Below, piece after piece: positions 1-55,920 of a DNA stretch of 64,000 bases. This DNA is from Hexactinellida sp. DTS-2022 (Eukaryota > Porifera > Hexactinellida). The position numbers and the translations under genes are program-made. The stretch spans positions 3,348,001-3,412,000 of the forward strand of contig JAPNXP010000006.1 of assembly GCA_028753945.1 (NCBI GenBank). The letters are read 5' to 3'. Under the pieces are notes generated by a model. The model was not told the DNA's origin. It saw nothing but the letters and a program-made list of their open reading frames with translations, and did no database searches. The first letter of the stretch is position 1. Every line of letters begins with the position of its first letter.

Positions 1-239
1 CCCTCCAAATGAAAAGTTAAGATTCCTGTTTAGGGGGGCTCCCCCAATTTTTAGGGGCTCCCCCCTATCCAATACTAGGTAATATATTGATTTGAGGGGG
101 TACCCCCCAATTTACTACTACCTATACTAATAAGTAAAATTTAAGTAGTACCTATAAATTCTATAAAATATATCTACGGTAGTAGTTATAAAGTTCCATC
201 TATGTATTAAGCCACCTAGCTGGTACGGTCTTTTGCGTC
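1..239 (+). repeat. Left terminal inverted repeat of the Ginger1 element (inner part)
   Basis: This matches the reverse complement of 4693-4932 nearly base for base, including the inner boundary at TTTTGCGTC. It starts inside an array of palindromic G/C blocks such as GGGGTACCCCC. Bases 240-313 then repeat 73-142 of the same arm (CCAATACTAGGTAATATATT onward), an internal direct duplication absent from the right arm. Confidence 0.85.
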
Positions 240-632
240 CAATACTAGGTAATATATTGATTTGAGGGGGTACCCCCCAATTTACTACTACCTGTATACT
301 AATAAGTAAATTTCAATAAAATAATTTGGAATTCCCATTTCCTCAGGTTATTCTATAAGGGGAGACTCTCCTTTTCTTAGGAGAGGTATTGTTGTCGTAT
401 GTCTCCTTTGTATCTCCACTTTGGAGGAACGTGATTTGTATAAATTAGCAAATCATGGACGTATACGGCATAAGCCCCACCTACAAAAAGGGGGAGTTTT
501 TCTGAGGCGAATGTCATCGACCCTGTTAACTCCACATTTCCCTATCGGAAACAATGGACATTGCATCGGGAATTTATGGCGCCACATTTCCCAAGAAATA
601 TTCACTTCCAAAGGGATTTGGGGGATATAATA

Positions 633-819
633 CAGTGGAACTCGGTAATAACGTACACTGGTTAGTACGTACTTTGGCTTAGTACATACTCATTTATTTT
701 TGCAAATTTGTAAATTTTTATGTATTTCTATGTATTGTCAACTCGGTTAGAACTTACACTCGGATAGTACGTACTAATTTTTCTCTTCCGAGGGTGTTCG
801 TACTAACCGAGTTCTACTG
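633..819. mobile_element. pogo/mariner-type MITE with TA duplication
   Basis: It begins CAGTGGAACTCGGT and ends ACCGAGTTCTACTG, flanked by TA at 631-632 and 820-821. Internal sequence also pairs (tandem GTACGTACT-like motifs). It sits inside the Ginger1 element upstream of the transposase start and so is the younger insertion. Related ends recur at least seven more times in the window. Confidence 0.8.
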
Positions 820-1214
820 TATATAATTTCTTAATCATTTTAGATGCACATTACCGATATTTAGCAATGATCCAATCCTGTGATTAGATCTCAATAATTT
901 ATTCATAGTGATCTCAATAATTTATTCATAGTAATCTAATATGCATTTTTGATTAATAAATGATTATTGTAATAAGTTAGTTAGCAAAAATGCTCTTCCT
1001 TACCACTAAGTCTGAACGAATGTGTTATTATTATATTTCTCAATCTGACTATTTATGTGTTGTAAATATATGTCTTCCAAAACGAACAGAATTAGATTAT
1101 GCATTATGAATTTAATATTTCTTTCACAAGGTTATTTAATTCCTATATATTGTAATAAATTATACTACATGTACGTATTAATCTACGCATAAACATTTGT
1201 TCAGTACTTTTCCG

Positions 1215-4200
1215 ATGGGCGATAGTTATTCAGATTCTGATATCGATCATTCTTTTCTCATCGAAACTGATCAATTTGCAAACGACCAATTATTATCGAA
1301 GCTGATTATTATTATCCCCACCCTACCAGAGATTCCTCAAGAGACGTTTTCTCAGCATGATTTGCGAAATAATTTTGATGGCAAAGCGAGGATTATCACT
1401 GACCACATGTATGCTCTGCATGTTGCTTATTTGTTTTGGAAAAGAAATCGCAAACTTGATGAAGCAATACCATTGATTATTCAAAAATCAATCGAGATTA
1501 TAAAACCAAAAGTAAAAGAGAATCGTAAACTTCTCAGATCTTTCGTTCAGAAAAGACTCACAGAATTCTCACTAAAGGTAAGTATGCTACTGTATATACT
1601 TATATTTGTATCACATTTTGTCTGGATTGGGTACACTGTAGTATATTAATTTTTGTATTTTTAGATAACGGAAGATGGTCAGTTACTCATGAAAGGAAAT
1701 AAAATTGTTTTATCCGAAGGGATGCTAAGAACGGCAGTAAAATGGTATCATGATCAATTGAATCATCCGAAGTTTACTACACTATCAAAATCAATGAAGT
1801 CTAATTTTCATATTTGGGGTCTGGAGCAAACTTCATTTAAAAACTTGTATTCAGAATTGCAATGCGACATATGCTGTTCAAATTTATTGCTCCCTAAACG
1901 AACTCATTCTAGTCATATCAAATCGTTTGAAATATTTGACAGAATTCAAATTGATCTTACCCAAATCGCCTATGGTGATCAAGAAGACATACTTTCCAGA
2001 AAAGGTTATAAATGGGTGCTAACCATTATTGATTGCTTCAGTAAATACGTTTGGGCTTATCCACTAAAATCTAAAGAAACTAATAGAATTTGCGAACTAA
2101 TTACTCAACTATTTTCAAGTGAAGGAAATCCTAAGATTCTACAGAGTGATAACGGTGGTGAATTTGTTTCTACATTGATTCGAAATATAATGCCTAAACT
2201 TGGTATTCGATTGGTCAATGGTTCACCATATTCTCCGACAACACAGGGTCAAATAGAGAGATTTAACAGAACGTTCAAATATCTCTTGAGGAAAGAAGTT
2301 CAGATAGAATTATCAAATAATAATTTTGAAGTAGTAGAAAACTGGGGGGATTTGTTAATTCCAAGAGTTATCGATTCATACATACACAAAGTACACAGAT
2401 CTTTATCTCGGACTCCATGGGAATTGTACAAGAACAGAACTTCACCACATCCTAAGACTAGCCTCAGAATAGAAGACATAAATACTCAAGAGATAGAATT
2501 GAGTTGCGCGTATCCTAATCCAGAATTAAGATCATGGGGTACTCACTCTGATCTTCATGATATAAAAGGTGCAATTAGACATTATTCTGGTGTAAGAGAA
2601 AAACTCAATTTGGAAACTTTAAGTCAGACAAGGAAGGTACAAGTTGAAAATTACAGACAAATAACAAAGAAAACTAATGGTCAGAATTTTGAAGTTGGGG
2701 ATATAGCTCTTATGAAAAATCCACTAGTATCTAAAATGAGGAAAAAGAAAATTTTTCTGGAAACCTTGAATGTCAAAGTGAGAATCTTAAAGAAACATTT
2801 GATATCTAATCAGTATCAAGTCGAATACGCAAATTCCCAAGGAGACCTTAAGCATAAATGGGTTCACAATACAGAACTATTCAAGGGAGGTACTTCTATT
2901 GAAATTACTGGATCAGACTATTTCGGAAAATCAATCGATTGCCAGTTCAGTTTGGAAGATTACAGAAAGTTAGTTACAAAGTTTGAACAACATATAGCAG
3001 AGATATGGTGCAATGGAAGAAAAATGAAACATAATCTTTTAAAAAGTATTACCACCTATGACAAACAACAGTTTGGTAATCTAGATTCTAGATTGGAGAA
3101 GAATGAAATTTGCAACAGCGGGGATAAGTTACATTTTTACGGAGAATTAGTTTTTGAAGTATTAGACTACTTATTTGTTCAGTTCTGTGCTAAATCGTTT
3201 TCAGCTGAATGTAACAAAGATTCCTCAAATAACGATTGCATACTCAAATACTTAGCACACCATGGTTTCAATGAACACTTAGGATCTCTACAATATTGGT
3301 ACCGCAGGAGATTAGATGATGAAAAGGGAAGCTATTTTGCTATAGTTCAAGAACTACATAATCCACATACAAAGCACTTTTGTGGAGAATGTATATTTTC
3401 AGCTGACTGCACCCATGAATGCTGTTTCAAATTGTTAACCTATGTCTTTCATCAGAAGAGTTTGTCTAGAGTAAGGGCTGATTCCAAAACAGTTAGTTGC
3501 TTGGGCAAAAGAAAAAGAGAAAAATGGCACTACCCCGAAAGTGAAATAGGTGACAATATCTCGTCAAATGTATCAATGGACGAAGAACAACTGAGCACAA
3601 CCAAAAGAAATTCCATTGTGGAAGAATGTAACTTATTTGTCAATATTCCATTAGAAGATGTGAGAATAGTGAAGCATAACGAGATCAAAGAAGAAGATCA
3701 ATTACCAAACATGACTGATGTCAGTTTACAGACGAACAAATTGTTAAATGCACCATGCAATATAATATCTAAATCCATCGAATCAGCGAACAGCGCACCT
3801 TCAAATTCAGAAGGAGATCTTTTTAAGCCAGTAACGATGGAATGGAGACGAAAAGCAATTCAAGAAAAGCTGAACATGAGAATAAACATTGAACACACTA
3901 CGTTTATTCCACATAATACATATAGAAAATTGAAAAATTGCGTTGCTAAGAAAAAGATTTCTATCATTCCTGATGGAAATTGCTTTTATAGGGCACTCAG
4001 TTGGTGGCTCACAGAGGAAGAAGATTTTCATCTATTAATTAGGACAAAGATAGTCGAATTTATGAGAAAGTCTTCGAAATGTCAGCAATATATAAGAAAT
4101 AAGACAGATCAAAATATCGAGGAGTATATTACGGAAAACAACACAATGGCTTCTACCATATGGGCAACAGATGTTGAAATATTTAGTGCTGCTATCTGGT

Positions 4201-4382
4201 TAGAAACCGACATATTTACGCTAAATAATGATACGTGGAACAGATTTTCACATGTAGGCTTCATTCCAAAAAAAGGTTGTAATATACCAAGTCCGTTAAG
4301 TATTTATCTTGAAAATTTATCTTGCCATTATGAACCCATTCTTTCGGTAATTCGAAAGGGTTATCAGCGTTTAGAGAGTTAG
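1215..4382 (+). CDS. Ginger1 transposase: integrase core plus C-terminal OTU protease (1026 aa, one intron)
   Basis: Exon 1 is 1215-1577 and exon 2 is 1665-4382. The 87-bp intron has the donor AAG|GTAAGT, an acceptor ending in TTTTTAG, and lies in phase 0. I start at the first ATG (1215); the frame is open a little upstream without another ATG. An HHCC zinc finger uses His150, His155, Cys188 and Cys191. The DDE core shows Asp218 (in IQIDL), Asp283 (in LQSDNGGEF) and Glu319 (in GQIERFNRTFK), a D-35-E spacing. The C-terminal OTU domain has its DGNCFYRAL nucleophile motif with Cys894 and a CHYEP histidine motif near residue 1009. The product should cut and paste its own element; the protease role is unknown. 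No stop or frameshift interrupts it, so it may be recently active. Confidence 0.85.
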
Positions 4383-4525
4383 ATATTAGAAGATCATTAG
4401 ATATATTTTAGAGAATTAGATATTAGAAGATTATTAGATATATTTTAGAGAATTAGATATTAGAAGATTATTATAAATATTTTGGAGTATTATATCTTAG
4501 AAGGCCATTAGATATATTTTAGAGG
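4377..4525 (+). repeat. 37-bp tandem repeat spanning the Ginger1 stop codon
   Basis: Nearly four copies of a unit beginning TTAGATATTAGAAGAT, period 37 bp. The first copy includes the transposase stop codon. Later copies are more diverged. No function is apparent. Confidence 0.8.
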
Positions 4526-4692
4526 ATTCACATTATTGCTCTAATTAAAGCAATCCTTGAAAATAAATCCTATTACAGGGGCAGTATATTTTTGAAAATA
4601 CATACATTCTGCTAATTTCGTTGTTGAACACGCATTCATAAGATACTTTTGAGGGCCCACTTCCTGCAGCTCTTGTTAGCTCGATTTACCTA

Positions 4693-5160
4693 GACGCAAA
4701 AGACCGTACCAGCTAGGTGGCTTAATACATAGATGGAACTTTATAACTACTACCGTAGATATATTTTATAGAATTTATAGGTACTACTTAAATTTTACTT
4801 ATTAGTATAGGTAGTAGTAAAATTGGGGGGTACCCCCTCAAATCAATATATTACCTAGTATTGGATAGGGGGGAGCCCCTCAAAATTGGGGGAGCCCCCC
4901 TAAACAGGAATCTTAACTTTTCATTTGGAGGGGCCCCCCATTATATAGAGGGGCCCCCCTAAATTTAATTTGAAATTGAATAAAAATGGGGGAGCCCCCC
5001 CTAAAATGGGGGGGCCCCTCCAAATAAGGACCTACAAATTGAAAAAATGAGGGGGTACCCCCCAAAATGGGGGGGCTCCCCCAAATCGAATGGCAAACCC
5101 TAAAAGAAATGGGGGGGTACCCCCCAATATTAGGGGAGCCCCCCCAAATGAACCCCTACA
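4693..5160 (-). repeat. Right terminal inverted repeat with G/C palindrome array
   Basis: Inverted partner of 1-239, extended outward. From 4830 to 5150 it carries about ten short palindromes of the types GGGGTACCCCC, GGGGGAGCCCCCC and GGGGGCTCCCCC, spaced by A+T-rich segments. Such subterminal arrays are commonly transposase binding sites; that role is inferred here. G-tracts of five to seven could also form quadruplexes. Confidence 0.7.
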
Positions 5161-5965: not shown

Positions 5966-5997
5966 ATACATACGCACATGTTTGTGTTTTAATAGTA

Positions 5998-6570
5998 CGA
6001 GCCCTTCGGTCTCGGTCGCTTCGCGACGAATCACTCTCTCACAAAAGTCGCTTCGCGACTTTTGTTTGTTCGTGTTAGGCACTACGCAATACAATTAACG
6101 GCCGCTTCGCGGCCTTTCCCTCCCCAAAAGCAATCACATTAATAATGAGTTTTAATAGCTCAATAAATTTCAGTTGCCGATAAGAAAGCTCGAATCAAAA
6201 TAATACTAAAGAAAAACAGGCAATAGAATAGACAAATGATTGATTGGTTAAATGAATTTCTTTTCAATCAATCAGATTGCAGCCTCAAAAAACATTTCTA
6301 TTATGCACAATCAATTTATACTAATTGATGAAATCTGCTAATTCATACTAACAAACCCTCGAATTTAATTGGCTAACATATTTTGTCACCTTCAAATGTG
6401 AATATTTCTCTTCAAAAACCAATAGATCGTTGTCGCAGTACAAAATTACCCATGTATAAAAATTTTCAGCTTTCTGGGACTCGTAGTCTTTCCAATCAAT
6501 TCTGGACAAACACACAAACAAACACACAAACAAACAAACAAACAAACACACAACAATTCCTCTTTTAATA
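5998..6570 (-). mobile_element. Helitron-like non-autonomous repeat, copy A
   Basis: Read on the minus strand it starts near TATTAAAAGAGGAATTG and ends in three hairpins followed by CCGAAGGGCTCG. The hairpins are GGCCGCGAAGCGGCC, AAGTCGCGAAGCGACTT and GTCGCGAAGCGAC, all with a GCGAAGC core. Copy B follows directly (6573-7140) and is nearly identical apart from small indels and point differences. A (CAAA)n tract marks the 5' side. Similar elements lie at 15232-15638 and 55377-55920. Confidence 0.55.
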
Positions 6571-6572
6571 TA

Positions 6573-7140
6573 CGAGCCCTTCGGTCTCGGTCGCTTCGCG
6601 ACGGATCACTCTCTCACAAAAGTCGCTTCGCGACTTTTGTTTGTTCGTGTTAGGCACTACGCGATACAATTAACGGCCGCTTCGCGGCCTTTCCCTCCCC
6701 AAAAGCAATCATATTAATACTGAGTTTTAATAGCTCAATAAATTTCAATTACACGATAAGAAAGCTCGAATCAAAATAATACTAAAAGAAAAACAGGCAA
6801 TAGAATAGACAAATAATTGATTGGTTAAATGAATTAATTTTCAATCAATCAAATTGGAGCTTCAGAAAATATTTCTATTATGCACAATCTATTTATACTA
6901 ATTGATGAAATCTGCTAATCCATACTATAAACCCTCGAATTTAATTGGCTAACATATTTTGTCACCTTCAAATGTGAATATTTCTCCTCAAAAACCAATA
7001 GATCGTTGTCGCAGTACAAAATTACCCCTGTATACAAATTTTCAGCTTTCTGGGACTCGTAGTCTTTCCAATCAATTCTGGACAAACACACAAACAAACA
7101 CACAAACAAACAAACAACAATTGCGCTTTTAATATAAAGA
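6573..7140 (-). mobile_element. Helitron-like non-autonomous repeat, copy B
   Basis: A head-to-tail duplicate of copy A with the same three GCGAAGC-core hairpins at its minus-strand 3' end and the same 5' (CAAA)n tract. A short GATA repeat follows at 7138-7156. It abuts the truncated C-terminus of the MULE remnant at 7145. Confidence 0.55.
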
Positions 7141-7144
7141 TAGA

Positions 7145-8190
7145 TAGATAGATAGATTAAAAGAACCCACTGTATGGCTGATTGCCTTAACATATTCCAA
7201 TGCGGAATATTTACCTTCAACAAGATATTCTTTATATTTCTGTAGCCGCTGGTCGTTTAGCACATTTTTCTTCTTCCTTTCCCTTGTAATCCGTAAACCT
7301 TCTTTTAATCTTGCAATTTCGTTGTTTGTGTCCACTATAATTTCATTAAATGTATCCAGAGCTTGCTACACTATATTAAGGACTTTAGTCTTCCGTTATA
7401 ATTTTCTGCTCCATTATTTGTGGCCATTTTCTGGTGCCAAAACAGATAATTCTTCAGGTGGAACTTGATTAATCAAAGTTCTCTTAACATATTGTTTGAG
7501 TTTCTCCACTCGATCAATTTGATGCTCTTCGAGACCAAGATTTTGTGCATTAATTTGATTGCATGTAGGCTGTATTTCATCTGGAGGTAAGAACGGTAGA
7601 GCCATAATACAGCGTATGTAATATTGAAATGCACCATTATTGGTGTATGTCGTTGCAATATTTACTTTTTGAACCTTCTTCCAAATTCGCTGGGTATACT
7701 GGAACCAACAGCCTTGTAACTTTATCCCATTGAACAGCGTTCTATAAGCATTACATGCTGCCTGTTCCCAGTCCGACATTGCTATTTGAGGTTGAAATTT
7801 TGGAATAATTTGATGAATTTTTGACAGAACTGCATGATATAATTCTTCAGATTTTCCAGGCAGAAGACAATGTATAGCAGGGAGTACATGTTGATCAATG
7901 ACGATAAAGATCGTCCAAAGCTGGTAAAACTGCAGTGGTACAGTAAAAAAGATACCGTCAAAACAAATTTCTGATATTTCAAACATTATGGAGGTAAAAA
8001 GATGAATCCACTGTCATCGCCTCTAAAAACAGAAGCTTTGAAATGCATTCCGAATATTGTTCCTGGAAATTGCATCTCAAATTCGGAAAGCGTTTGGGGA
8101 ATTTTGGGTTGAAGTTTCCTTCTACATCGATACACTGTAGACTCGCAACTGTGAAATGAAATTTGTCTGCCTGCTGGATCTATTCTCGTT
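7145..8190 (-). pseudogene. MULE transposase remnant
   Basis: The longest open stretch (7414-7986) shows the MULE core: an LLPGK-type loop, SDWEQAACNA in the place of the second catalytic Asp block, and the CWFQY stretch where CX2H is expected. The frame then breaks, and a C-terminal piece reading EYVKAISHTVG follows at 7180-7340 in another frame. The first catalytic block reads FDGIFFTVP at about 7945. Frameshifts and truncation by the Helitron-like repeat make it a pseudogene. It is closer to the MULE at 23.5-25.0 kb than to the one at 46.5 kb. Confidence 0.75.
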
Positions 8191-9745: not shown

Positions 9746-9768
9746 AAATTGAGAGCGTGTTCATTATC

Positions 9769-13285: not shown

Positions 13286-16200
13286 CTATTTTTCTGACCC
13301 ATCTTTCGGCTGTAGGCTCTGTAACTTCATTAACTGAAGAGTATAGTCAATAATACAAGCGTCCTGCATCAGTTTATCCAGTCTAGACATATGTCTCTGA
13401 GAATAAGGGAGCATAGATTGTAAATGTTTACGAAAATCTGCGATTTTTTTTAACTTTTCATCCGGAACAGTTCGGAAAATAACATTCATAATTCTTTGTG
13501 CGGCCATATAGAATTTACTATTCGTATTCCATTTGACAATATGAGGAAATAACATTGATAACTCTGATAATTCGAGTGAAGTTATAATGCGTGTGAGGAC
13601 AGTATCACTCTCATCGGAAATAATTATTTTCTCAATAATGGAGTAGAGTCTACGTGGCATATCGAGTGCTAATTTAAATGCATTTTCGTGGTCATTTGCT
13701 TGAAGTAAGTTTTCTAAATTTTGTTCACGAATTATTAGTTCATTTCGCTTTCGAATTCGTATTTCCTCATTCTCAACTGTCATATCATATAAAATATGGA
13801 CATTTGAATCTGAGCTGCCAGAAATTAAAAATTTTCCATCTTCAATAGATATGAGGCCCCAAACTTTATCTTGATGTAAATCTAGTGTTAAATCGCACAT
13901 CATTGATTTAATATTCCAAACTTTAAGAATACCTTCGCTTGCACAAGATATCAATTGAGTGCCTCTCGTGATATAAGCAATTTGCAAGACACCAGATGTG
14001 TGTCCTTGGAATGTGCGCATGCATTGGAAATCAGAAATATTCCAAATCCTAATAGTCATATCGGCAGAAGCAGTAGCCAAACACTGATCGAATGGTGAAA
14101 ATTTTACACACCAAATTCCTTTCTTGTGACCTAACAAAGCAGCAATTACCTCACCTTTCGAAGTATCCCATATTTTCGCCGATTTATCATTCGATCCTGT
14201 AGCAATGTACCGGTCATTCGGAGACACATCAACTGAATTGATATCTTTGGTATGCCCGGCTCGTGTCCAATGTGTACTAATTTTAAGTACCTTTTCGTAC
14301 GGCTCTACTAACAGAGACAAGTCCCAAACTTTCAGTGTTAAATCCTGACCTGCACTCACTACAAAATCATTTGTTAATTTTGAAAACGCAACTGCATTAA
14401 CATTATGCGCATGACCCTTCCCAATTGCTACTTTCGCCCAACTATTGTCAATCATTTGCCAAATAAAAATGTTCTGGTCTTTGCTACCAGATACGAATCT
14501 ATCTCCATTAACATTGCCATCAACACATAGCACCATATCTTTATGGCCACTAAGTAGAGTAGGGTTGCCGAATTGACCTAATTCATTAGACAATGATTGA
14601 TAAATACGAATCATTTCGCTGTTAGCAGCAACAGCAAGTTGATTATTCTTAAGTAAAGTCAAACTGAGTACCTCGTCATTACAACCCACGAGATGATCAG
14701 AAACTGAGAAATCTTTGGTATTAATGCAATGAATTGACTGTTCATGATTCACTATATAGACACACCCAGCTGAGACAAATAATTGTGAAATTGATAGAGA
14801 AGCAGGTGCATCTGTTTGTGATTTCGAAGATTCAAATATTCTACCATAAGGTAGGATGGTAGAAACATTTTTCCATGTTTTTGGATCGACTACGAATATT
14901 TCACCGCGACAAGATGCTGTGAAGAGGTAGAACAGCTCATCATCTGGTGAAGCAATACATAAAGCTTCAAGACTATGTTGTAGTGTGATTAATCGCGATT
15001 TTGAATGTTCTGCTGTGTCTTTTGAGATTTCCCATTCAATAATGACTCCATCTCCTCCAGATGTGAAAAGTACATTAGGAGAAAAAGGATGGAAAGTTAG
15101 ATCTGTCAACAAATTGAGATGACCCTCCAATTTACCTAAAAGGTAGATAATGTGTTAATTTAATATATTCCAAATATTATGCTTCTATTCACGTAAATGT
15201 ATATTTTTGGCAAATTTGATTTTAACTATAACGAGCCCTTCGGTTTCGGGCGCTTTGCGACGGATCGGTGCTGTGCGGCATTAATCCTCACCATTTCTAC
15301 CATGTAGGATGTTATATACATCACTTTCTACCATTTTCCATAGTTTTAAGTAGTTTAACAATAATATCCGTTGAAAGCTAACTTCTAGGTTGATTTTGAA
15401 TTTTTATTAATTTCATTATTTATTTGTGTAAACTACATCAATAATTATTCATATTAGAAATTTATAAATGAGAAATTCGTGTTCAGCATACTTATTTACC
15501 ATTTATAACATTTTGAAGTTAGTTTATACCTCATATATAAACGTGGTTTCTATTCCCCCACCACTTTAATACAATCCGGGCAAAAAACAAACACATACTA
15601 CACACACACAATCAACAATCGAGCTTTAATAATATAGATTTTGATTATCACAAACTCAGAATGTCTAATATTTGCTATAGGGAGTTCACGGATGAAAAAG
15701 GTTGGGAATCGCTGCTCTTAACTGTATATAATAAGAATCTAATCATGGGTATTTAAATTCCAAGGGAACTAATAATTCGGATCAAAAGGGATATTTATAT
15801 TTTATCCAGTGAAAAGTTCAATTGTATTTTATACTAGGGTGAACTCAATTTTAAATTTACCCTTGGGGAACTTAAAATTACATCAAATGTTAAGTTATCC
15901 CAAATCATCCATACTCAATTAATATGTAATAATCTGCATTAGTATATGCAATGTGTAATGCTAGTTGGATTTGAGTAAGGATTCATATTTAGTATAAAAG
16001 ACTTCATAAATATTATATACGTATAATAATTTTAAATGACTATAACAATTATCCTAAACTCAGTGTTTCTATCGATCTACCTAATATTCAGTGTATACTG
16101 GGGATTTATTTTCGCCAGGAGAATCCATTGCTGCGGAAAATACAAGAGAGGAGTAGCGAGATGTTTCTCAGGTGATTTAAGTTATTTAAATAAACAATTT

Positions 16201-19200
16201 TATTATCATTATCAAACTGAAATATGGAAAATACTCCATTACTTTTGATCACTTCTTCTGAAATTATTGGAAGTATCGTACTTTTCACATCAGTTACCAT
16301 ATAGAGCATTACATTACCTATCATAAAGTAAGTAATAATACGCTCGAGTTACCATTCACTGATTGTACAAGTTACCACAAGCCTGCACTGAATCAAGTTA
16401 ATATTGTATATACGGAAATTCCTTTCTTAAATGGACTTAGCTCCATAGCGAGATCTGCTGAATTATTTGTGCTTGCTCTCAGTATAAGTTTGATGAATTA
16501 TCTAATTATTCGTATGAAGAAAATCAAACAACCGTACAACACATTGAATTATCGGCTGTTCTTAAATATAACCACCTTGTTAAGTATAGTAATTATCCTA
16601 ACTGGGTTTATACAATATACCATAGTTATTAGTACCGTATTGTTCTACGTTATTGTACCCACATATCTCTGTATATTTGTTCGCACTTCCAAACGATTCA
16701 AATGTGCCTTGCTCCAGAGAGCTTTGGAACGTCTCACACAACACGGTTCCAACAAGGAAGAGATGAAACAGTACAGATACTGCAAGCACACTATTAATAT
16801 TATAACATGGGGATATCTGTTCATTCTATTAGCAAAGACGTTAACAGATATTAAACAGCTACTTATCAGTGCGGTACTTAATGGGAACTGTTATTTTCCA
16901 TTTGATTTCTTCCCTTCTCTTAATCTTGTAATTGAGACTGCAGAAGCTGTTGAAACATTTTTCGAAGTAATGGAAATTATAAGGTGGATGGGTGTTGCAA
17001 CTTGTTATATAGGGATGGTGATGTTCTTGTTCCCAATGGTGTATATCACAATCCTTATTTGGATAAAACATATCCGCAGGTATATTTATGGTGATGAAAG
17101 GATTAAGTATAGCACTGTTGATGCAAGCTAAAATAATTGTATTAATTAACATTACCAGTTGCTAATGATTATATTTCTTGTCAATAAAGGTTATATTCAG
17201 TAATATTATTTGTTGTGTAGTATTAAAGAGTTATTAGTTACAGATCATAACTGTATTCCGTATTATAGAGAGTCGGATTATGCAGGTTCTAGTGTATTTT
17301 ATCAAATTTCATTTGAGTTACTATCTGGGGTTCTTTGTCTTCAAGGCACTAAACAATTATTATTTATTATTTATAACCTACATAACTAATGTACGTATAG
17401 TGGGATTCGCGTAGGAAATACAAAGTTGTGTACAAGACTAGTGCGACACTTGCGTACAACTTTGGTACGATATTTGTGTACAGCTACATTTATGTACAGA
17501 TTGTATAGCTGTAAATGGTCACATTAAGTGATGGATAATGACCCATTCTTAGTATTTTACAATATCAACTTTATTCGTATAATTTCAATTTAATTATCTG
17601 ATCAAACATACAAATAAACGACAATCTATCTTTATTTATGAATGATAATTTTAGACATAAGGAAATCGATTAATGAGCTGAGTTGAGTAGAAGACTGAAT
17701 TTAAAAGAATTTAAATTAACTATCAATTGGAACTATTCCGATCTAAATATCCGTATGGAGGTATAAGATGTTTATCTAAAAAGTTATTTTAAAAGCAATG
17801 CTCTTAAGAAAAACCATAACTGGTCTGGTGAGGTAATTCATTACTATCGTCACCAATGTTGATTCGCTTTCCAGTTACTTTTTAGATTTAGTTGGTCGAA
17901 TTCCCTTATAGTATTGTGCTTGTTTCAGTTCGACGCTAGATTGTTCAATAATTAATGCATGACAAAATTTCCAGAATTTTGGATGGTGACATGCAACGGT
18001 GACTGAAAACGCGCGATGCCAAGCTTCGACTGCATTCGTTGTCCTCGGTTTTCCACATCGAACTAAGTGAAAGTTGTTCCACATCTCGATTGGAAATAGT
18101 GGCGAATCGTAACATCCAAATTTATCTCTTCTCCCAACATATGTACTTACAAAGTAATCATATAGCGGTAGTGCTTCATGAGGAACTTGAGCTTTTAAGT
18201 TTTCAAAAGTGTGTACAACATGTTGATGTGGTAAATAAGCTAGAGCAGGTAGCATTCTGAGGAGTAATGAAAATTCAAGATCATTTAGATAGCGAGTTTG
18301 CAACCCAACTTCCTGTATCTTTCTATAGACAGCCTGAGATAAATGAAAAAAACAGCCCTTGACATTTGTTAAAGCCCAAACCTCTCGGAAGGTATTTATG
18401 GCAGCTTTCTCAAAATATACCCTCAGATATTGGGGATTAGAATTAGGACATAAGTCTTTTATAATTTTTTTAATAATCTTTCGATAATAGAATGAACTCT
18501 TGCCCGGGAGTAAAACATAAAAACATGGAAGCAGACGTCCATCCAGGAAAGGGTAAACTCCACCAGCTAACCCATGGATTGTGTAAAGCTGTGAAAATAA
18601 AGAAGGAACAGTCTTGAATGTTCCATCTGCCATCCATATCGAACATATAGTTAGTTATTTTTGTTTTCTTCTGACCAAACATTATAATTCTATCTGACCC
18701 TGGGCCAGAATCGTAGATCAAAAACTCTTTCAACCCTAGCGCTTTTATATTTTGGTCAATTACGAGATCCAAGAGGGAAGTAGGGTTAGCTCGAGCTGGT
18801 CTTACTCTTTGACAGGTCCTTTTCAGACTTTTTTCAAGGGGTAAAAGGGTTTTAGCAATCTCAGACAAACTACCAGAAATTTCAGCAACTATTCGATGTG
18901 GATTATCGTGAGTTTCTTTAGACCGTCTCTTAATACCTGCGCGTAATACAAGTACTTATTCTGCTCCGATCTCTGGTCCATGACAGTGCTCGCAAATCAT
19001 TTTAAGGATATTTGTTGATTTTGTATGTATACGCCCCCTACAGTTTTACTTGACAACGCCACTGCTTCTTTACACTAGCTTCACGCTGAAAATTGTAGAT
19101 GAATCCTTCGTGTGATAATGTATCATGTCCCTTAGAAGATTTTATCAATTTGTAGTCACAATTGCACTGGGAAAATTGTCACTACTCAGAGTGACCGATG

Positions 19201-22200: not shown

Positions 22201-25200
22201 CATTTATAACGCGTTTAACTATGTTAAAAGTATGCTAGAAAAACAAGATAATTCGCAACCAAAATTACCATAACGTCATCAGAAGATGATATATAACAAT
22301 TCTGGAGGGTGCTATGTATACCTGGATACCATATTCCTATATACCGTATTTCCCCGAATAAGCGCCGGGTCAATAAAAATGACATTGGTATGATAAAATC
22401 TATACACATTAGTTGATCACTGTAATGTAATTCCATTGATTTTGGCAACTTCGGTAGATATACTGTTGGTGGAAACCATTAGAACCGACTCAAATATTAT
22501 ATTCTGGATTTTTCACAAAAATTTCAGGATAATTTTGGCCCACGAAAACAATAAGCGCCGGGGCGCTTATTCGGGGAAATACGGTAGTTATAATACACTT
22601 TTCAGCTCTATTATTGCTAATTATTGGAATAAAGATCAATTCTCCATTTTCAATGCACTTTAAGTAATCCATGGTACACAAATTTTCGCTTAGCACTCAG
22701 GCCTTTTATATCGAAGGTCACGACTGATTATTATATTTCTCCGCTTAATGGGGTAAAAATTTGACAATAATTATAGGACGGAATTACAGTTTGACTCAAC
22801 TAATATATTTAGCATATTTCATTTTTAAGTATTTTTCACTAGTATAAGTACTCAGGTTCAGGAAGGAATTTGTATACCGAATGGTGAGCTAGACAAATAT
22901 AAATATTAAAAATATATAAATGCGAAATTCGTGTTCAGCATACTTGTTTACCTATTATAACATTTGTTTACCTTTTATAACATTTGGAACTTAATATATT
23001 TCTCAATTATAATGCGGTTTCTATTACCCCATCACTTTAATACAATCCGGACAAACACACAAACACACACACAACAATCGAGTTTTAATAATATAGATGT
23101 TCTCATTCATCTACCTTAAAAATCAACGTTTACATAGGAGTCGTAACCCACAAGGTCACCAGACATTACCTGGGTAGTGCAAAGGACTTACAAGGTGTTA
23201 TACGGTAGCACCCGGATTATCCGAGTTTACTAAAATAAGAAGGTAGGAAGTATACTCCGCTTGATAGAGCCACCGGTTATTAAATCTCAAAGCTTAATTT
23301 GGTAAAACTAAACCGGAACAAAACTGACCCTATTTAGCGAAGTCAACTGTATATACAATATAGTATATGTATACCAAAAACTGTACCATATTACAACCCG
23401 AATAAGCGCCGGGTCAATAAAATGGCATTTGTAAAATAAAATTAACACCCATTAGTTGATAAATGACGTGTAATTACATTGATTTAGACGGGAACGCGTA
23501 ATTTGGTCAACGCTAAGTTAGGAATTTGGTCAACGTGTGTAACCTGTCGAAGTGATCCATGCAGTTCATTAGTAACATTTAGACAAATGGAGAGCAGTAT
23601 ATGTGTAAAAGAAAACGAAAAATGTTCCCACCTCTCCCCTTGGATCCTCAAATTTATGTCAGCTTATTCGTGACTCCCCTTTTGTACATATATGTAAAGG
23701 AAGCGTCTGTAGTGAATGATCACATGCAATCATATTTGCATCTGATTTAATGCTACAGAAGATGAAATATGTTGAACAAATCCAATTTGATGGAACGTTC
23801 TATACAGTACCGGCGATTTTCTATCAACTCAATTATACTATTCATAACGCTTCATGAACATTGTATTCCAGCTATGCACATTTTGATGCAGAACAAAACT
23901 GAGGATCTATACACACTTGTTGTATTAAAGCTACTTGAACTAATTCCTGATTTTTCTCAAAAAATTGCTGTTAGTGATTTCGAAAAAGCACCTAGAAATG
24001 TATTCACACACTTTTCCCTGGAATGAGAGTATTTGGGTGTTGGTTCCATTTTACTCTAGCCATCTGGAAAAAAACACAATCCTTAGGCCTAGGAAAATTA
24101 TACAAAAATAATAATACGTTTGCAAATTTGCTCAGAAAACTAATGGCATTGTCTTTATTACCTGAAGATAAATTAATAGCAGTTTTCCCAATTTTATTAC
24201 AAGAAAGTTTCAATGAGAATGAGCTACTTAAAAGTTAAAGTTTTACTACAGAAATACATTGATTGTTTGAGAAAAAGCATTGTCAATATTTTCTGCTGAA
24301 AATGCACAAATAATGGTGCTGGAGTCAGCTGGACATATCATAAAACTCTAAATTGTTTGTCAAATTTGAAATTTTGGTCTGATCTAAACAAGATAATACT
24401 TGATTATGAAATTGAATATCAAAGGTTCGAACAATTTCTCATGCAACAGGTCTTCAAATTACCAGAAATTCAAGCAAGAAAAATTGCCAAAATGCTGAAC
24501 GTAGAAAAGCATGTAAAGACAAGTTATAAGATGGAACATTCTCAACTACTCAATATCTCAACGCTATTTCACTAACAATAGGGCGTACTTCTAAAATTTC
24601 CCAGGACGATTCAATTGATGAATCAATTCACAGTGATGATGACACACTTCAAAACACTTGCCTAATTTGTTGCCAAACAATTGAAGGAATATTTGCATTG
24701 GTCCCTTGTGGTCATGCAAATCTATGTCGCAATTATGGACAGAAATTTATTGATGAAGACACGCACTGTCCCATTTGCCGTAGTGAGATACTGAGATTAA
24801 TGCAGATTTTTCAATAATAATCTTTGTAATACTTCATTACTATTAATTTCATTTCATTGCTATGTCATTTAATTCACATTAAATTGTATTTCATTACTAT
24901 TTATTTCACAATTCCAGCGTAATAAAATTAGTAAAATACATTGTAATTTTCATTAAAAATACAGGATTTAAAATGTATCGTTGACCAAATACTTAACTAT
25001 GGAGTAGACCAAGTTCCTAACTCCCATTTAAGCAACTTCGGTATGTTTACTGTCGCTGAGAACCATTAGAATCTAGATAATATTATTTTCTAGATTTTTC
25101 AAAAAATTTGAGGATAAAATTTGGCTCACGAAAACAATAAGCGCAGAGGCTTATTCGTCCAAATTAATTCGGTAGAAGTAGAACATACAATTGGATAATC

Positions 25201-32760: not shown

Positions 32761-34650
32761 CAAAAATTAAATCAATTGATTTTCATTTTATTTTATTTTT
32801 TTAATCATTGTTTTTTCCATTTCAGGAAGTAATGAACTTTTCATGAATTGGGACATTTTTAAAATGCGTTTACTGATAACCATAACATCAGGGCCCGTAT
32901 TCACTAAGATTACTTAGTACTTAAGTACTAAGTATATACTTAAGTCATAGACTCCTTAAGATAAGGACTGGAACGTCGCGATCTCGGGGTTTTTAACTTG
33001 TGTCTGAGAGGCTCCAATTATAAAATTGAAAAAGCATTAGGTTTCCGGTTTCCAAATGTGATTTTTGGCATATAGGGGTAACATTTGGCACCCGTCAACA
33101 ATTTGAGGTTCTCACTCAAAATTTCTCACACCTCGACAAGTTATGACGTCATTGTCACATTTCGAGAACCCTGAAAATGTCTAGCACTACATTCCAAAAA
33201 TAATTAACTATCCAGGTTTGAAATTAACACACGAGCAATTTGCACGCAAATAACCGATAATTTGTTTTATATCTAAGCAATATTACAAAAGTTCAAGTAA
33301 TTAGAGCCTGGATAAACAATAATTTTGTAATGTCGGTATTAGTAAATGCACCAATCAACCTGTCAGCTAAAAAATTAGTTTAATAATTATTTTGTGATTA
33401 GTACAGCGAAGATAAAATTGAATGTTTGGATAAAACGCTAGTCTACAGTCCCGGTCCCAGGATTGAAAAAAATTACGTATAGTACACGTACTACCAAATA
33501 TTTGAATATTCGTTCGAAATGATTGAACGAATACGTATTCGTTCGTTCGAAATGAAAAATCGTTTGAGGAATATTAGATTGAAACGGATATTCGTTTACT
33601 AATTTGGACAACAACATGACATTTATTTAGATCGGAGAGATCGTAAATAATAAATATAAAGGTCTGTTAACTAATCAATTGGAACAGTCATTGGAAGAGT
33701 CACTATTGGCTACTCCACGGGGTATAGTCGAGGATAATACTAATAGATTAAATGAAACTACTGTTGAGCAGCATTCAAGACAGATAGAGTTATGACTGAA
33801 AGCCCGATTCGTTCCAACCCAATCTTCATACTTTCGGGTACCACTATCACCTCATCATAGGCGCCGATGTTGGAGTACTGGGGGAACACACTAACGAACA
33901 CACAACAATCGAATTTAAATATTATAGATTTCCATTGTTAGTTCTGGTGTACTCTGTATAGAAAACAATTTACAATAAGTTAACAATAATTATGCGGAAT
34001 TAATTGAAAATTGTTATGGAATATATAATAGAAGCTACTCGATCTCAATAGTAAATAGAAGCTACTCTATTTCACAAAGTGATTTCGAATTTCTTCTACT
34101 TTCAACTACCCTTCGCCTCGCGTAAATGTACCTATCATGGTGGGATCTGGGGAGTCAGGATCCCCCAGATCGTTGATGTGCTAGCATCCTCTGGAGTTAC
34201 CCATGCCATACAGTTGTAATTTAATGTACTATATTTGTTTAAACCATTAGTAGCTTCATCATTGGCCTCCGAATGCTCAAGTCGCTCGATCTTGGAACGA
34301 ATTGACCTTTCTGATCAACTTTCGACCTTGGGCAGCCAAGCAGCGGCGGCGCCCTGGGTGGGCAGCAGATGGGCAAACCTAAACCCAGGGGGGCACACCT
34401 TTTTAGAAAAAAAACGCAGGAATTCATAGTTGCCGTCGAGACTCGAGAATCCACATTTTTTCCCAGTAAAGTATAGAAAACTAATCCCAATTTGCCCAAA
34501 ACTCCAAGAATCGCAAGAATCGCCGTTCGCATTCAAAACTGGTCTAATAACACTGTTGCATTTAACACTTAACATTGATTGGGCAATCATGTTTGAAGAC
34601 TCTGATGAATCTTGTTGTTCATGTTCAATATTGTTCATATTTCGCTAAAA
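32761..34650. other. Repeat-derived spacer, no gene
   Basis: Contains a single CAGGGCCCGTATTCACTAAG end (32890), the inverted GACGTCAT dispersed repeat (33045-33185), palindromic ATTCGTTCGAA runs (33510-33600) and a Helitron-like 5' end ending at 33928. Reading frames at 34235-34640 show no family signature. Confidence 0.5.
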
Positions 34651-46884: not shown

Positions 46885-46931
46885 GTACATATTTTCCAAA
46901 ATTGGAAACTTTATTATTAAATACACACAAC

Positions 46932-48353
46932 ATGGCGACTGCTCCTCATCAGACATTTAGGGTGATCATATCTCAGAAAGGAGGACAGAAGATGATTCAA
47001 GGTGGATATATGTATGGTATGCAAAGGAGAGTAAATGATGTCACACATTGGCAATGTGAACAGAGGGAGGTTTGCAAGGCGAGAGTACATACTAAAGGGA
47101 TGGATATAGTGAGACGCACTAACGAACATCTCCATGCACCAGACGAGGAGTCGGTGAGGTGCTACGAGACAAAGGTCGGAATGAAGAGGCAAGCACTACG
47201 ATCCCAGGACAGCTCCCTTCACATAGTTGGTGAGTGTCTCCTTACGGTATCAGAAGGCACCGCTGCTAAGCTGCCCAAGCTAGACAGCCTGAAGCGCACC
47301 ATTCAGAGGCAACGCGTGCAGGCATTGGCAGCTCCTGCACAGCCTGCTACCTTGGAACAGCTCACACTCCCACCAGAGTACAAGAAAACAGCAAAAGGCG
47401 AACAGTTCCTCTTGTACGACTCTGGCCCGGAGGTACAGCGAATCCTTATTTTCGGGACACAGCAAAACCTGGAGATGTTGCAGTTATCCCAGGTCTGGTT
47501 GGCTGATGGAACATTTAAGACAGCACCCACCCTATTCACACAGGTGTATGTGGTACATGCATTGCGTGGTGGGCCTGATCCCATGAAGGATGGCCACTTG
47601 TTACCTAGTCTTTTCGTGCTCCTACCTAATAAAACAGAGGTAACCTACACAAGGATGTGGCAGCAAATCCAGCTCCTTTGTCCTGCTGCTCATCCCATCG
47701 AGATGATAATGGACTTTGAAAAAGCGTCACTCAACAGTTTTGCACACTTCTGGCCCGATACACTGCTAAAGTGTTGTTTCTTCCACCTAACGCAAAATGT
47801 ATGGCGCAAGGTGCAGGCTGAGGGGATGCAAGCTGAGTACAATCTGCATGGAGATCTGGCTAGAAGCATCCGACTGCTACCAGCTCTCGCATTTGCTCCA
47901 CCATCCCATGTACTACATCTCTTCAATGAGGTAGCTGGGCAGCTGCCGATGCCACAAGCAGCCGGTCTGCTGGCATACTTCGAGGACACCTACATCGGAC
48001 GCCTGCTCCCGAGCGGAACTTACCAGGAGGCTCTATTTCCTATCGGCCTGTGGAATTATCACATTATGACACCATTCGGACTACCTCGAACCACTAATGC
48101 TGTCGAGGCATGGCATCGCTCCTTTAATCCAACCGTTGGATGTCATCATCCGAACATGTGGAAATTTATCACAGCCCTGAAGCGGGAGCAGGGACTAGTC
48201 GAAGGACGACATGCCAAGTTCGTCGCAGGAGCTCAGCCGTCCAAGAGGGGGAGGTGCCAAGCCAACGAACAAGCGTTAAAAACATTGATTGTGAGCTATT
48301 ATTTTCGTCCTGGATTGGAGTTCTTAAGCGGAGTAGCGCACCATTTAGTTTAG
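46932..48353 (+). CDS. FLYWCH-MULE transposase, intact (473 aa)
   Basis: Single exon; the ATG at 46932 follows ACACACAAC. The frame is open 30 bp further up without an ATG. The N-terminal FLYWCH zinc finger (about 8-70) has Cys42, Cys48, His66 and His68. The MULE core follows with LADGTFKTAP (Asp192), IMDFEKASLNSF (Asp261), the CX2H motif CFFH (Cys282, His285) and TTNAVEAWHR (Glu392), so all three catalytic acids are present. It should excise and insert the surrounding element; the FLYWCH finger probably reads the end iterons. The gene is much richer in G+C than its surroundings. It has a TATA box and an ATTAAA at 48459. Confidence 0.93.
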   Translation: MATAPHQTFRVIISQKGGQKMIQGGYMYGMQRRVNDVTHWQCEQREVCKARVHTKGMDIVRRTNEHLHAPDEESVRCYETKVGMKRQALRSQDSSLHIVGECLLTVSEGTAAKLPKLDSLKRTIQRQRVQALAAPAQPATLEQLTLPPEYKKTAKGEQFLLYDSGPEVQRILIFGTQQNLEMLQLSQVWLADGTFKTAPTLFTQVYVVHALRGGPDPMKDGHLLPSLFVLLPNKTEVTYTRMWQQIQLLCPAAHPIEMIMDFEKASLNSFAHFWPDTLLKCCFFHLTQNVWRKVQAEGMQAEYNLHGDLARSIRLLPALAFAPPSHVLHLFNEVAGQLPMPQAAGLLAYFEDTYIGRLLPSGTYQEALFPIGLWNYHIMTPFGLPRTTNAVEAWHRSFNPTVGCHHPNMWKFITALKREQGLVEGRHAKFVAGAQPSKRGRCQANEQALKTLIVSYYFRPGLEFLSGVAHHLV

Positions 48354-52495: not shown

Positions 52496-52560
52496 TCTAT
52501 ATTATTAAAACTCAATTGTTGTGTGTTTGTTTGTTTGTTTGTTTGTGGTGATAAGGAACA
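52496..52560 (+). mobile_element. Helitron-like 5' end fragment
   Basis: TCTATATTATTAAAACTCAA preceded by A, then the (GTTT)n tract seen at the start of copies D and E. No 3' hairpin end follows within 1 kb. Confidence 0.45.
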
Positions 52561-55376: not shown

Positions 55377-55920
55377 TCTATATTATTAAATCTCGATTGT
55401 TGTGTGTTTGTGTTTGTTTGTTTGTCCGGATTGTATTAAAGTGATGGGGGAATAGAAACCGCATTAATATATGAGATATAAACTAACTGTCAAATGTTAT
55501 AATTGGTAAACAAGTATGCTGAACACGAATTTCGCATTTATAAATGTATAATATGAATATTTGTTGTTGTTGTTTACACAAACAGATAAACAAATTAATG
55601 AAATTCATAATCAACCTAGAAGTTAGCTTTCAACGGGTATTATAGGTAAACAAATATGCTGAACACGAATTTCGCATTTCTAAATTTATAATATGAATAT
55701 TTGTTGTTGTTGTTTACACAAATAGGTAAACAATTAATCAAAATTCAAAATCAATCCAGAAGTTACCTTTTAACGGGTACGTATTATAAGTATATAACTA
55801 TGACAAATATTACTAACTATGTAATCAATTGTTTAGTGAGGAGTAAGGCCGACTAGCGGCCGTTACCTAGAGGTGCGTAGCACCGATCTGTCGCAAAGCG
55901 ACCGAGACCGAAGGGCTCGT
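55377..55920 (+). mobile_element. Helitron-like repeat, copy E
   Basis: It starts TCTATATTATTAAATCTCG after an A and ends GAAGGGCTCG before a T. The 3' end has hairpins GGTGCGTAGCACC and GTCGCAAAGCGAC: the stems of copies A and B are kept but the loops changed from GAA to GTA and AAA. An inner segment of about 180 bp (ACAAGTATGCTGAACACGAA onward) is duplicated. Confidence 0.6.

Follow-up and report, generated by a model that had tools for sequence, protein, structure and literature searches.

Short Helitrons with CTCG 3' ends and a series of 3' hairpins share both termini with RepHel-coding elements and nest in one another's 5' ends

The window analyzed here, a stretch of 64,000 nucleotides (G000:C15:3348001-3412000) from a host assembly of 112.4 Mb in 18 contigs, carries two short Helitron copies on the minus strand of positions 5998-7156. 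They lie head to tail, copy B followed by copy A (Table 1). The first-pass annotation had placed the pair at 5998..7140, a span that holds both copies except that B runs on to 7156. Both terminate in GTCGCGAAGCGACCGAGACCGAAGGGCTCG, and the next base is T. At least 110 places in the genome match copy A wholly or partly (with 40 of 2,656 first-look candidates scored). The junction between the two suggests an order of events in which copy A was present first and copy B entered at TCTA|TATATT, taking over the TC end of A. This course of events would explain the pair as well as the missing TCTA tract in copy A.

The target of copy A, TACTATTAAAACACAAAC (window position 5997 and below, minus strand; also found in L028), recurs as a target elsewhere. 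It resembles TCTATACTATTAAACACAAGCC at window position 9767 (plus strand), and the two sequences possibly represent the 5' end of yet another Helitron family.

The heptamer GCGAAGC forms an exceptionally stable DNA mini-hairpin. It occurs 10 times in the window against an expectation of 1.96, a count that 0 of 100 shuffles reach, and 6 of these 10 sites fall within copies A and B. The first-pass annotation had described three hairpins centered on this heptamer in the 3' region of each copy, and we find all three in both copies (hairpins I to III). Copies A and B also contain a fourth, terminal hairpin that was absent from the earlier list. When folded as single-stranded DNA, the whole 3' regions of A, B, and the coding element E1 (see below) were far more stable than shuffles, with z scores of -3.92, -3.86, and -4.45, respectively, and 0 of 200 shuffles as good; the A and B regions used here stopped at the last base or one base before it. 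For two shorter pieces of A, 34 and 17 nt long, folding in isolation gave z scores of -0.80 and -0.76, which are not significant. The nearest separate hairpin is 13 nt long and lies 17 nt from the end, and the last bases fold only weakly on themselves (z of -0.76). An RNA gene or tRNA was considered and rejected, with 0 matches in Rfam and 0 from ARAGORN. Papers listed for GCGAAGC and minihairpins deal mainly with aptamers and primers.

TABLE 1 Helitron copies, hairpins, and termini. Positions refer to the window unless a contig or another retrieved sequence is named.
Feature	Position	Strand	Ends, sequence, or basis	GCGAAGC center
Copy A, non-autonomous Helitron	5998..6572	-	3' end CTCG at 5998, before T	
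Terminal hairpin of A	5998..6014	-	CGAG-A-CC-GAA-GG-G-CTCG, to the last base; sequence, fold prediction	
Hairpin III of A	6015..6027	-	GTCGC-GAA-GCGAC, 17 nt from the 3' end; sequence, fold	6018-6024
Hairpin II of A	6042..6064	-	CAAAAGTCGC-GAA-GCGACTTTTG; sequence, fold	6050-6056
Hairpin I of A	6100..6114	-	GGCCGC-GAA-GCGGCC; sequence, fold	6104-6110
Copy B, non-autonomous Helitron	6573..7156	-	5' end A|TCTATCTATCTATCTATCTTTATATTAAAAG	
Terminal hairpin of B	6573..6589	-	Sequence, fold prediction	
Hairpin III of B	6590..6602	-	Sequence, fold prediction	6593-6599
Hairpin II of B	6617..6639	-	Sequence, fold prediction	6625-6631
Hairpin I of B	6675..6689	-	Sequence, fold prediction	6679-6685
Copy C, decayed	15232..15638	-	Coding-type 5' end A|TCTATATTATTAAAGCTCG; 3' end CTCG|T	
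Coding-type 5' end	23070..23097	-	A|TCTATATTATTAAAACTCG; no matching 3' end within 1.5 kb	
Variant 5' end	33901..33928	-	A|TCTATAATATTTAAATTCGATTG; no matching 3' end within 1.5 kb	
Coding-type 5' end	52496..52523	+	A|TCTATATTATTAAAACTCA; no matching 3' end within 1.5 kb	
Copy F, non-autonomous	55377..55919	+	Both ends coding-type (GTA and AAA loops)	
Copy with TTC loop in hairpin II, end	L009, 2075	-		
Copy with TTC loop in hairpin II, end	L016, 2072	-		
Copy with TTC loop in hairpin II, end	L022, 2077	-		
Copy with TTC loop in hairpin II, end	L030, 2068	+		
Coding element E1	C1:2899280-2909992		10,713 bp; examined end to end	
Coding element R43	C1:5909405-5920002		Both ends examined	
Coding element R40	C1:13279060-13289890		Both ends examined	
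Coding element R34	C2:2953431-2963534		Both ends examined	

The 21-nt 3' end of the family has 3,302 matches in the genome at up to 2 mismatches, compared with 0 for the reversed pattern. Bases flanking the termini were read from lists of the first 100 ends along contig C1 (of 1,993, 617, and 2,346, flanks with an outermost G excluded). The base after the 3' end was T in 97 of the first 100 of 1,993 listed ends, and the base before the 5' end was A in 96 of the first 100 of 617 TCTATATTATTAAATCTCGATT-type 5' ends, the TC start belonging to the search pattern itself. The rule was thus broken by three 3' flanks (not T) and four 5' flanks (not A). Among 77 distinct 3' ends in retrieved sequence, 75 read CTCG, one TTCG, and one CTGG; the last is an apparently unrelated match that precedes A, and it is the sole one of the 77 without a following T. 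Genome-wide, CTDGT ends (with A, G, or T at the third base of the tetranucleotide) number 44 against 2,346 matches to ACCGAAGGGCTCGT, a rough ratio given that the patterns differ in length. The predominance of CTCG and the rarity of CTDGT therefore indicate that the family 3' end is CTCG and not CTRR. These genome-wide lists bear out what had been proposed from a few copies, namely, an A|TC start and a CTCG|T end, with the non-standard end as the dominant form. The terminus carries a one-base ambiguity (T).

Empty sites were sought by joining the flanks of individual copies with a script and aligning them to the retrieved sequences; all those found belong to non-autonomous copies. One copy, in L002, resides in a 16-bp satellite, and its joined flanks align without a gap over 200 of 200 bases (90.5-97%) in 122 overlapping registers of a single array. 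Another, in L029 (minus strand, 2209), is nested in a sister copy; its joined flanks align gap-free over 200 bases (92-96.5%) at 30 places in 21 retrieved sequences; of the 57 alignments crossing this site at ≥88%, 24 contain a gap somewhere. Comparisons of L026 with L028 and of L013 with the window gave compatible empty-site alignments, but with gaps near the site. At the L002 and L029 sites, the element has inserted between an A and a T, and no bases have been duplicated or lost. The first-pass annotation had suggested fixing the termini from empty sites and had named a target duplication or different termini as evidence against its reading; these gap-free sites display neither. The satellite in L002 that carries this Helitron insertion has the unit TGTTACAAACGCAACA.

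A search with the Helitron_like_N profile (PF14214) gave at least 151 genome matches in two score groups (150 of 292 candidates scored; 150 of the 151 matches listed). The 49-nt coding-type 3' end, taken from an element with a 1,902-amino-acid (aa) open reading frame (ORF), has 947 genome matches at up to 3 mismatches. Five of these matches are exact. For four of the five, a first-group PF14214 match is found 7.1-7.6 kb upstream on the same strand, whereas none of the listed Rep matches is close to the fifth (C17:1643630). Four coding elements of 10.1-10.8 kb (E1, R40, R34, and R43) have the same two ends, all beginning A|TCTATATTATTAAATCTCGATTG and all finishing GTCGCAAAGCGACCGAGACCGAAGGGCTCG|T, a CTCG end. 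Together with E2 and one further 3' end, these form a chosen sample, in which the interiors of R40, R34, and R43 were covered in part. E2 (on C1, with a Rep ORF of 1,640 aa) has the family 5' end; it is the one of five first-group elements with that 5' end for which a 3' end of its own was looked for and not identified. A CTCG end about 11.4 kb beyond E2 was rejected as its terminus because it belongs to another short copy.

The 1,902-aa protein encoded by E1 is of the HUH/Pif1/OTU type. Pfam analysis of two parts of it detected Helitron_like_N (6.8e-64), PIF1 (7.5e-64), Pif1_2B (2.6e-18), and OTU (7.4e-6) domains, and an endonuclease domain gave no match in these two parts at an E value of 0.01. 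From the R40 ORF, a part of 1,181 aa was compared with Helraiser (PDB 7lcc), and the two align over 1,063 aa (E value of 6.5e-218). The HAH motif and two tyrosines of R40 fall on Helraiser H593/H595 and Y727/Y731, residues whose mutation cost activity, according to part of PMC4778049. By its shared ends and its Helraiser-type protein, this is therefore a Helitron of the canonical lineage with a non-CTRR end. The longer Rep/helicase relative that the first-pass annotation had proposed to look for is thus present, with an HUH-Y2 Rep and a Pif1 helicase between the same two termini and not the DDE transposase that it had named as contrary evidence. In combination with the empty sites, these coding relatives support its reading of HUH-type transposition into A|T.

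Additional members of the family are scattered through the window, including three 5' ends that stand alone (Table 1). Copy C has at least 141 whole or partial genome matches. Earlier, copies with AAA or GTA loops had been described as keeping their stems; both loops are indeed present in copy F, but its hairpin I is damaged, and in copy C, which has the AAA loop, the stem is damaged. Immediately internal to their 5' end, the coding copies (L063-L066) have a tandem repeat of about 140 bp, and related sequence is found in copies C and F (window 15395-15590 and 55400-55750).

Other mobile DNA is also present in the window. Positions 1-4932 have inverted arms (1-113/4820-4932 and 96-239/4693-4836) that are 97-99% complementary and contain G-run and C-run palindromes, and an ORF between the arms (1689-4382) encodes an rve integrase core and an OTU domain; the arrangement resembles that of a DNA transposon whose transposase is of the integrase type. 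Similar GC-run palindromes lie in the left flank of coding copy R40. A MULE transposase domain just under the Pfam cut-off occurs at 17875-18633 (minus strand), and another, with a FLYWCH finger, occurs at 46902-48353 (plus strand) between inverted arms of 137 nt that are 99% complementary (46549-46685/48481-48617).

We next consider how well the hairpins are conserved. In an alignment of 47 A/B-type copies, the stems diverge by 0.2-0.7%, whereas divergence reaches 3.3% elsewhere in the 3' region and 2.1% in the body, so that stems are approximately 5 to 15 times more conserved than nearby spacers. Changed stem cells number 3 of 658 in the terminal hairpin, 1 of 470 in hairpin III, 4 of 939 in hairpin II, and 4 of 564 in hairpin I. 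For the loops of the same 47 copies, the corresponding counts are 0 of 141 in both hairpin I and the terminal hairpin (invariant GAA), 4 of 141 in hairpin III, and 21 of 141 in hairpin II. Coding-type ends (n = 14) use different loops: ACA in hairpin I (8/14), GTA in hairpin II (14/14), and AAA in hairpin III (13/14), with GAA in the terminal hairpin (14/14). In 100 unselected genomic copies, the stem of hairpin III is intact in 73, and its loop reads AAA in 52 and GAA in 43.

The low divergence of the stems and the variety of the loops indicate that the stems are constrained and the loops partly free. The conserved parts are the stems and the terminal CCGAAGG. As a hallmark, GCGAAGC holds for the A/B subfamily, to which copies A and B belong, but not for the coding copies; because their loops read ACA, GTA, and AAA, we rejected the heptamer as a common denominator of the family. 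Stem covariation, which the first-pass annotation had suggested examining, proved thin: there are 3 compensatory cells among 53 A/B-type ends and 0 among 14 coding-type ends, and for hairpin III in the 100 unselected copies (471 of 500 stem cells paired) the changed cells comprise 4 compensatory and 38 others. One compensatory change, from A-T to G-C in hairpin II, is present in three copies. As the main support for the hairpins, covariation is weak. In 4 of the 47 copies, the loop of hairpin II reads TTC, the reverse complement of GAA, and in one (L026) it reads TTG. Three of the TTC-loop copies fall in one clade and the fourth lies apart; the TTC loop looks like the product of hairpin inversion by template switching.

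Removing 30 of 100 rows (own 5' ends, look-alikes, TA repeats, and flanks not starting with T) and merging 3 duplicates left 67 distinct non-self 3' flanks, which have the motif T-A-T-T-W-W-W-T-A-A-A; A occupies position +9 in 78% of them and position +2 in 66%. For the null distribution, A|T sites of matching A+T content were drawn 2,000 times, and the maximum for A at +9 was 63%. These flanks match TATTATTAAA, which is the coding element's own 5' end minus its first TCTA, at a mean of 4.58 of 9 positions (null maximum, 4.43), and they match TATATTAAAA at 4.46 (null maximum, 4.33). The match to a third reference, TACTATTAAA, was 4.13, below the maximum of 4.24 in the 2,000 draws. The non-self targets resemble the element's own 5' end.

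Exact insertion into the 5' ends of other copies would explain the arrays. Among the 100 listed 3' ends, 17 have another copy's 5' end as their exact flank. The 6,797 AT dinucleotides of the 64-kb window correspond to about 24 million oriented sites in the genome, compared with at most about 3,300 of the family's own 5' ends; we estimate the excess of self-insertion as roughly thousandfold, a figure that is inflated if arrays were later duplicated. We further classified 70 distinct 3' ends in L001-L030, the best 30 of 110 matches, a set that is biased to A/B-like copies and in which some sequences overlap each other or the window. Half of these ends (35) border a 5' end whose cut falls precisely at TCTA|T; this 5' end is of A/B type in 24 cases and of coding type, the other subfamily, in 11. 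Of the remainder, 4 meet a 5' end at a different offset, 1 is a direct CTCG|TC join, and 30 are non-self by this rule, a set that still includes two sequences in L016 resembling 5' ends as well as the L012 match, which is unrelated. The array junctions place the cut within another copy's 5' end, at TCTA|TATATTA or TCTA|TATTATTAAA. Direct genomic CTCG|TC joins without target bases occur at C1:4978446-4978480 (minus strand) and in the overlapping L009/L024. By eye, array size and the length of the TCTA tract show no link. Helitron insertion near other Helitrons is known (Yang and Bennetzen 2009, as cited in part of PMC12477314).

On the strength of sequence evidence, we are confident that copies A and B are short, non-autonomous Helitrons mobilized by a Helraiser-type RepHel protein from elements of about 10-11 kb with the same ends. 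By analogy with Helraiser, Rep would nick before TC at the 5' end and the helicase would unwind the element until the 3' hairpins make it pause, allowing a second cut after CTCG. The strand would then close to a circle with a CTCG-TC junction, and Rep would insert this circle at A|T, with the target read through bases 3' of the nick. The AT-rich preference of Helraiser is strongest on the 3' flank (part of PMC4778049), which fits such a read-out. Given the likeness of these target bases to the 5' end of the element itself, other copies would be favored and head-to-tail nested arrays would form. A more tentative model, which we consider conceivable rather than probable, is that the Helitron protein has one sequence-reading site for both its own 5' end and the target, four bases out of register. 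The front end of each copy would then be a preferred landing site and drive the growth of nested arrays on the 5' side, a route from dispersed transposon to satellite-like DNA, and a ladder of three to four hairpins would replace the single hairpin and CTRR as the stop signal.

Several other explanations were weighed against this one. The short copies could have been moved by a second RepHel lineage, their ends in common with the first being a coincidence of capture. Such a lineage is represented by L071 (G000:C18:2394900-2403100; P0001), which encodes Rep, helicase, and EEP endonuclease domains and is of the Helentron type; many of the second-group PF14214 matches lie in open frames of about 1,700 aa, and the sequences suggest that this lineage was recently active. 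However, the 8,201 bases of the single L071 copy contain neither family terminus, with up to 2 mismatches allowed for the 5' end and up to 3 for the 3' end, whereas four of the five first-lineage elements examined have both family ends and the fifth has the 5' end. Moreover, Helentrons are described as inserting at TT, not AT (part of PMC5148889), and a role for the second lineage is highly improbable. Classification of the family itself as a Helentron was likewise rejected, since no EEP domain was found in the two parts of the E1 protein analyzed, the targets are A|T, and the ends are not inverted. Still more remote, to the point of being negligible, is a DDE transposon or MITE family with coincidental hairpins, despite a palindromic 3' end and the MULE and rve transposase domains in the window. 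We rejected it given the RepHel in the coding copies, the empty sites without target duplication, and the lack of a terminal inverted repeat: copy B begins TCTATCTATC and reads CGAGCCCTTC inward from its other end, and the longest inverted word between the first and last 100 nt is a 10-nt TTTG repeat in B and 7 nt in E1, both internal.

Two further alternatives concern the arrays and the stems. Head-to-tail arrays might reflect rolling-circle read-through or unequal crossing over instead of repeated insertion into 5' ends. The two direct CTCG|TC joins are as expected of circle junctions or read-through, and longer arrays such as C16:4118858-4123761 could have grown by crossing over. Yet the 35 of 70 junctions cut at TCTA|T are without the TC end that read-through would retain, and 11 of them join two different subfamilies, which makes this account of the arrays quite unlikely. 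Slightly less so, though still unlikely, is the possibility that the stems are conserved through gene conversion or template switching of GC-rich palindromes rather than through a role as terminator. The TTC and TTG loops are what inversion of a palindrome by template switching would produce; the invariant loops of hairpin I and the terminal hairpin, however, are left unexplained by palindrome correction, and the 3' hairpin of Helraiser promotes correct termination (part of PMC4778049). Mobilization by the Helraiser-type RepHel, with insertion of copies into one another's 5' ends, thus remains our preferred reading.

In the open-licence literature, taken mostly at the level of listings and apart from Repbase, we found no description of CTCG ends, a hairpin ladder, or a target motif like the element's own 5' end; the CTCG in one Helitron paper is part of a primer (part of PMC6927752). 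Among the viral contigs of IMG/VR and the genome contigs of GTDB, none matched the 21-nt 3' end exactly. The array junctions of the family document target choice many times over in nature, and with the target resembling the 5' end, a general preference for AT-rich DNA becomes a recognition model that can be tested. Its coding copies provide a natural non-CTRR RepHel for the biochemistry of the 3' tetranucleotide and of hairpin roles.

The protein, the target, and the start make the family a Helitron, with a RepHel between the same termini and no target duplication, but the 3' end fails the canonical definition. That definition comprises TC...CTRR and one 16-20 nt hairpin 10-15 nt from the end (parts of PMC5148889 and PMC13286980). 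With canonical Helitron1, the family shares the TC start, A|T insertion, a hairpin near the 3' end, and RepHel, but where CTRR has R, CTCG has C. A rule based on TC...CTRR with one hairpin would miss, or assign wrong ends to, a family with thousands of CTCG 3' ends. Hel1 of insects also combines a non-CTRR end with A|T insertion, varying at the fourth base (CTRY) and not at the third as here (part of PMC6544945). GAA-loop hairpins are a likeness to Helitron2/Helentron elements, for example, the 5' hairpin GCC GAA GGC of FoHeli1, but the asymmetric terminal inverted repeats and TT or TNAT|T targets of those elements, and the EEP domain of Helentrons (part of PMC5148889), were not seen in the family; nor were the terminal inverted repeats and target duplication of DDE transposons and MITEs.

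Helraiser/Helibat1 of bats (PDB 7lcc; PMC4778049) resembles the family in both protein and ends. The RepHel proteins are homologous over 1,063 aa, with HUH and Y2 residues aligned, in a comparison that covers the part of the R40 protein without the C-terminal OTU domain. Also common to both are the TC start, A|T insertion, a 3' hairpin, an AT-rich target on the 3' flank, and CT..G|TC head-to-tail junctions, the direct joins of the family matching the Helraiser circle junction (part of PMC4778049). Helraiser differs in ending with CTAG, although CTTG ends occur in some of its products, and in having one 19-bp palindrome 11 nt from the end (part of PMC4778049), whereas the family has CTCG and four hairpins, the last of which reaches the terminus. 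In contrast to Helraiser, the family has a base-specific target motif that resembles its own 5' end.
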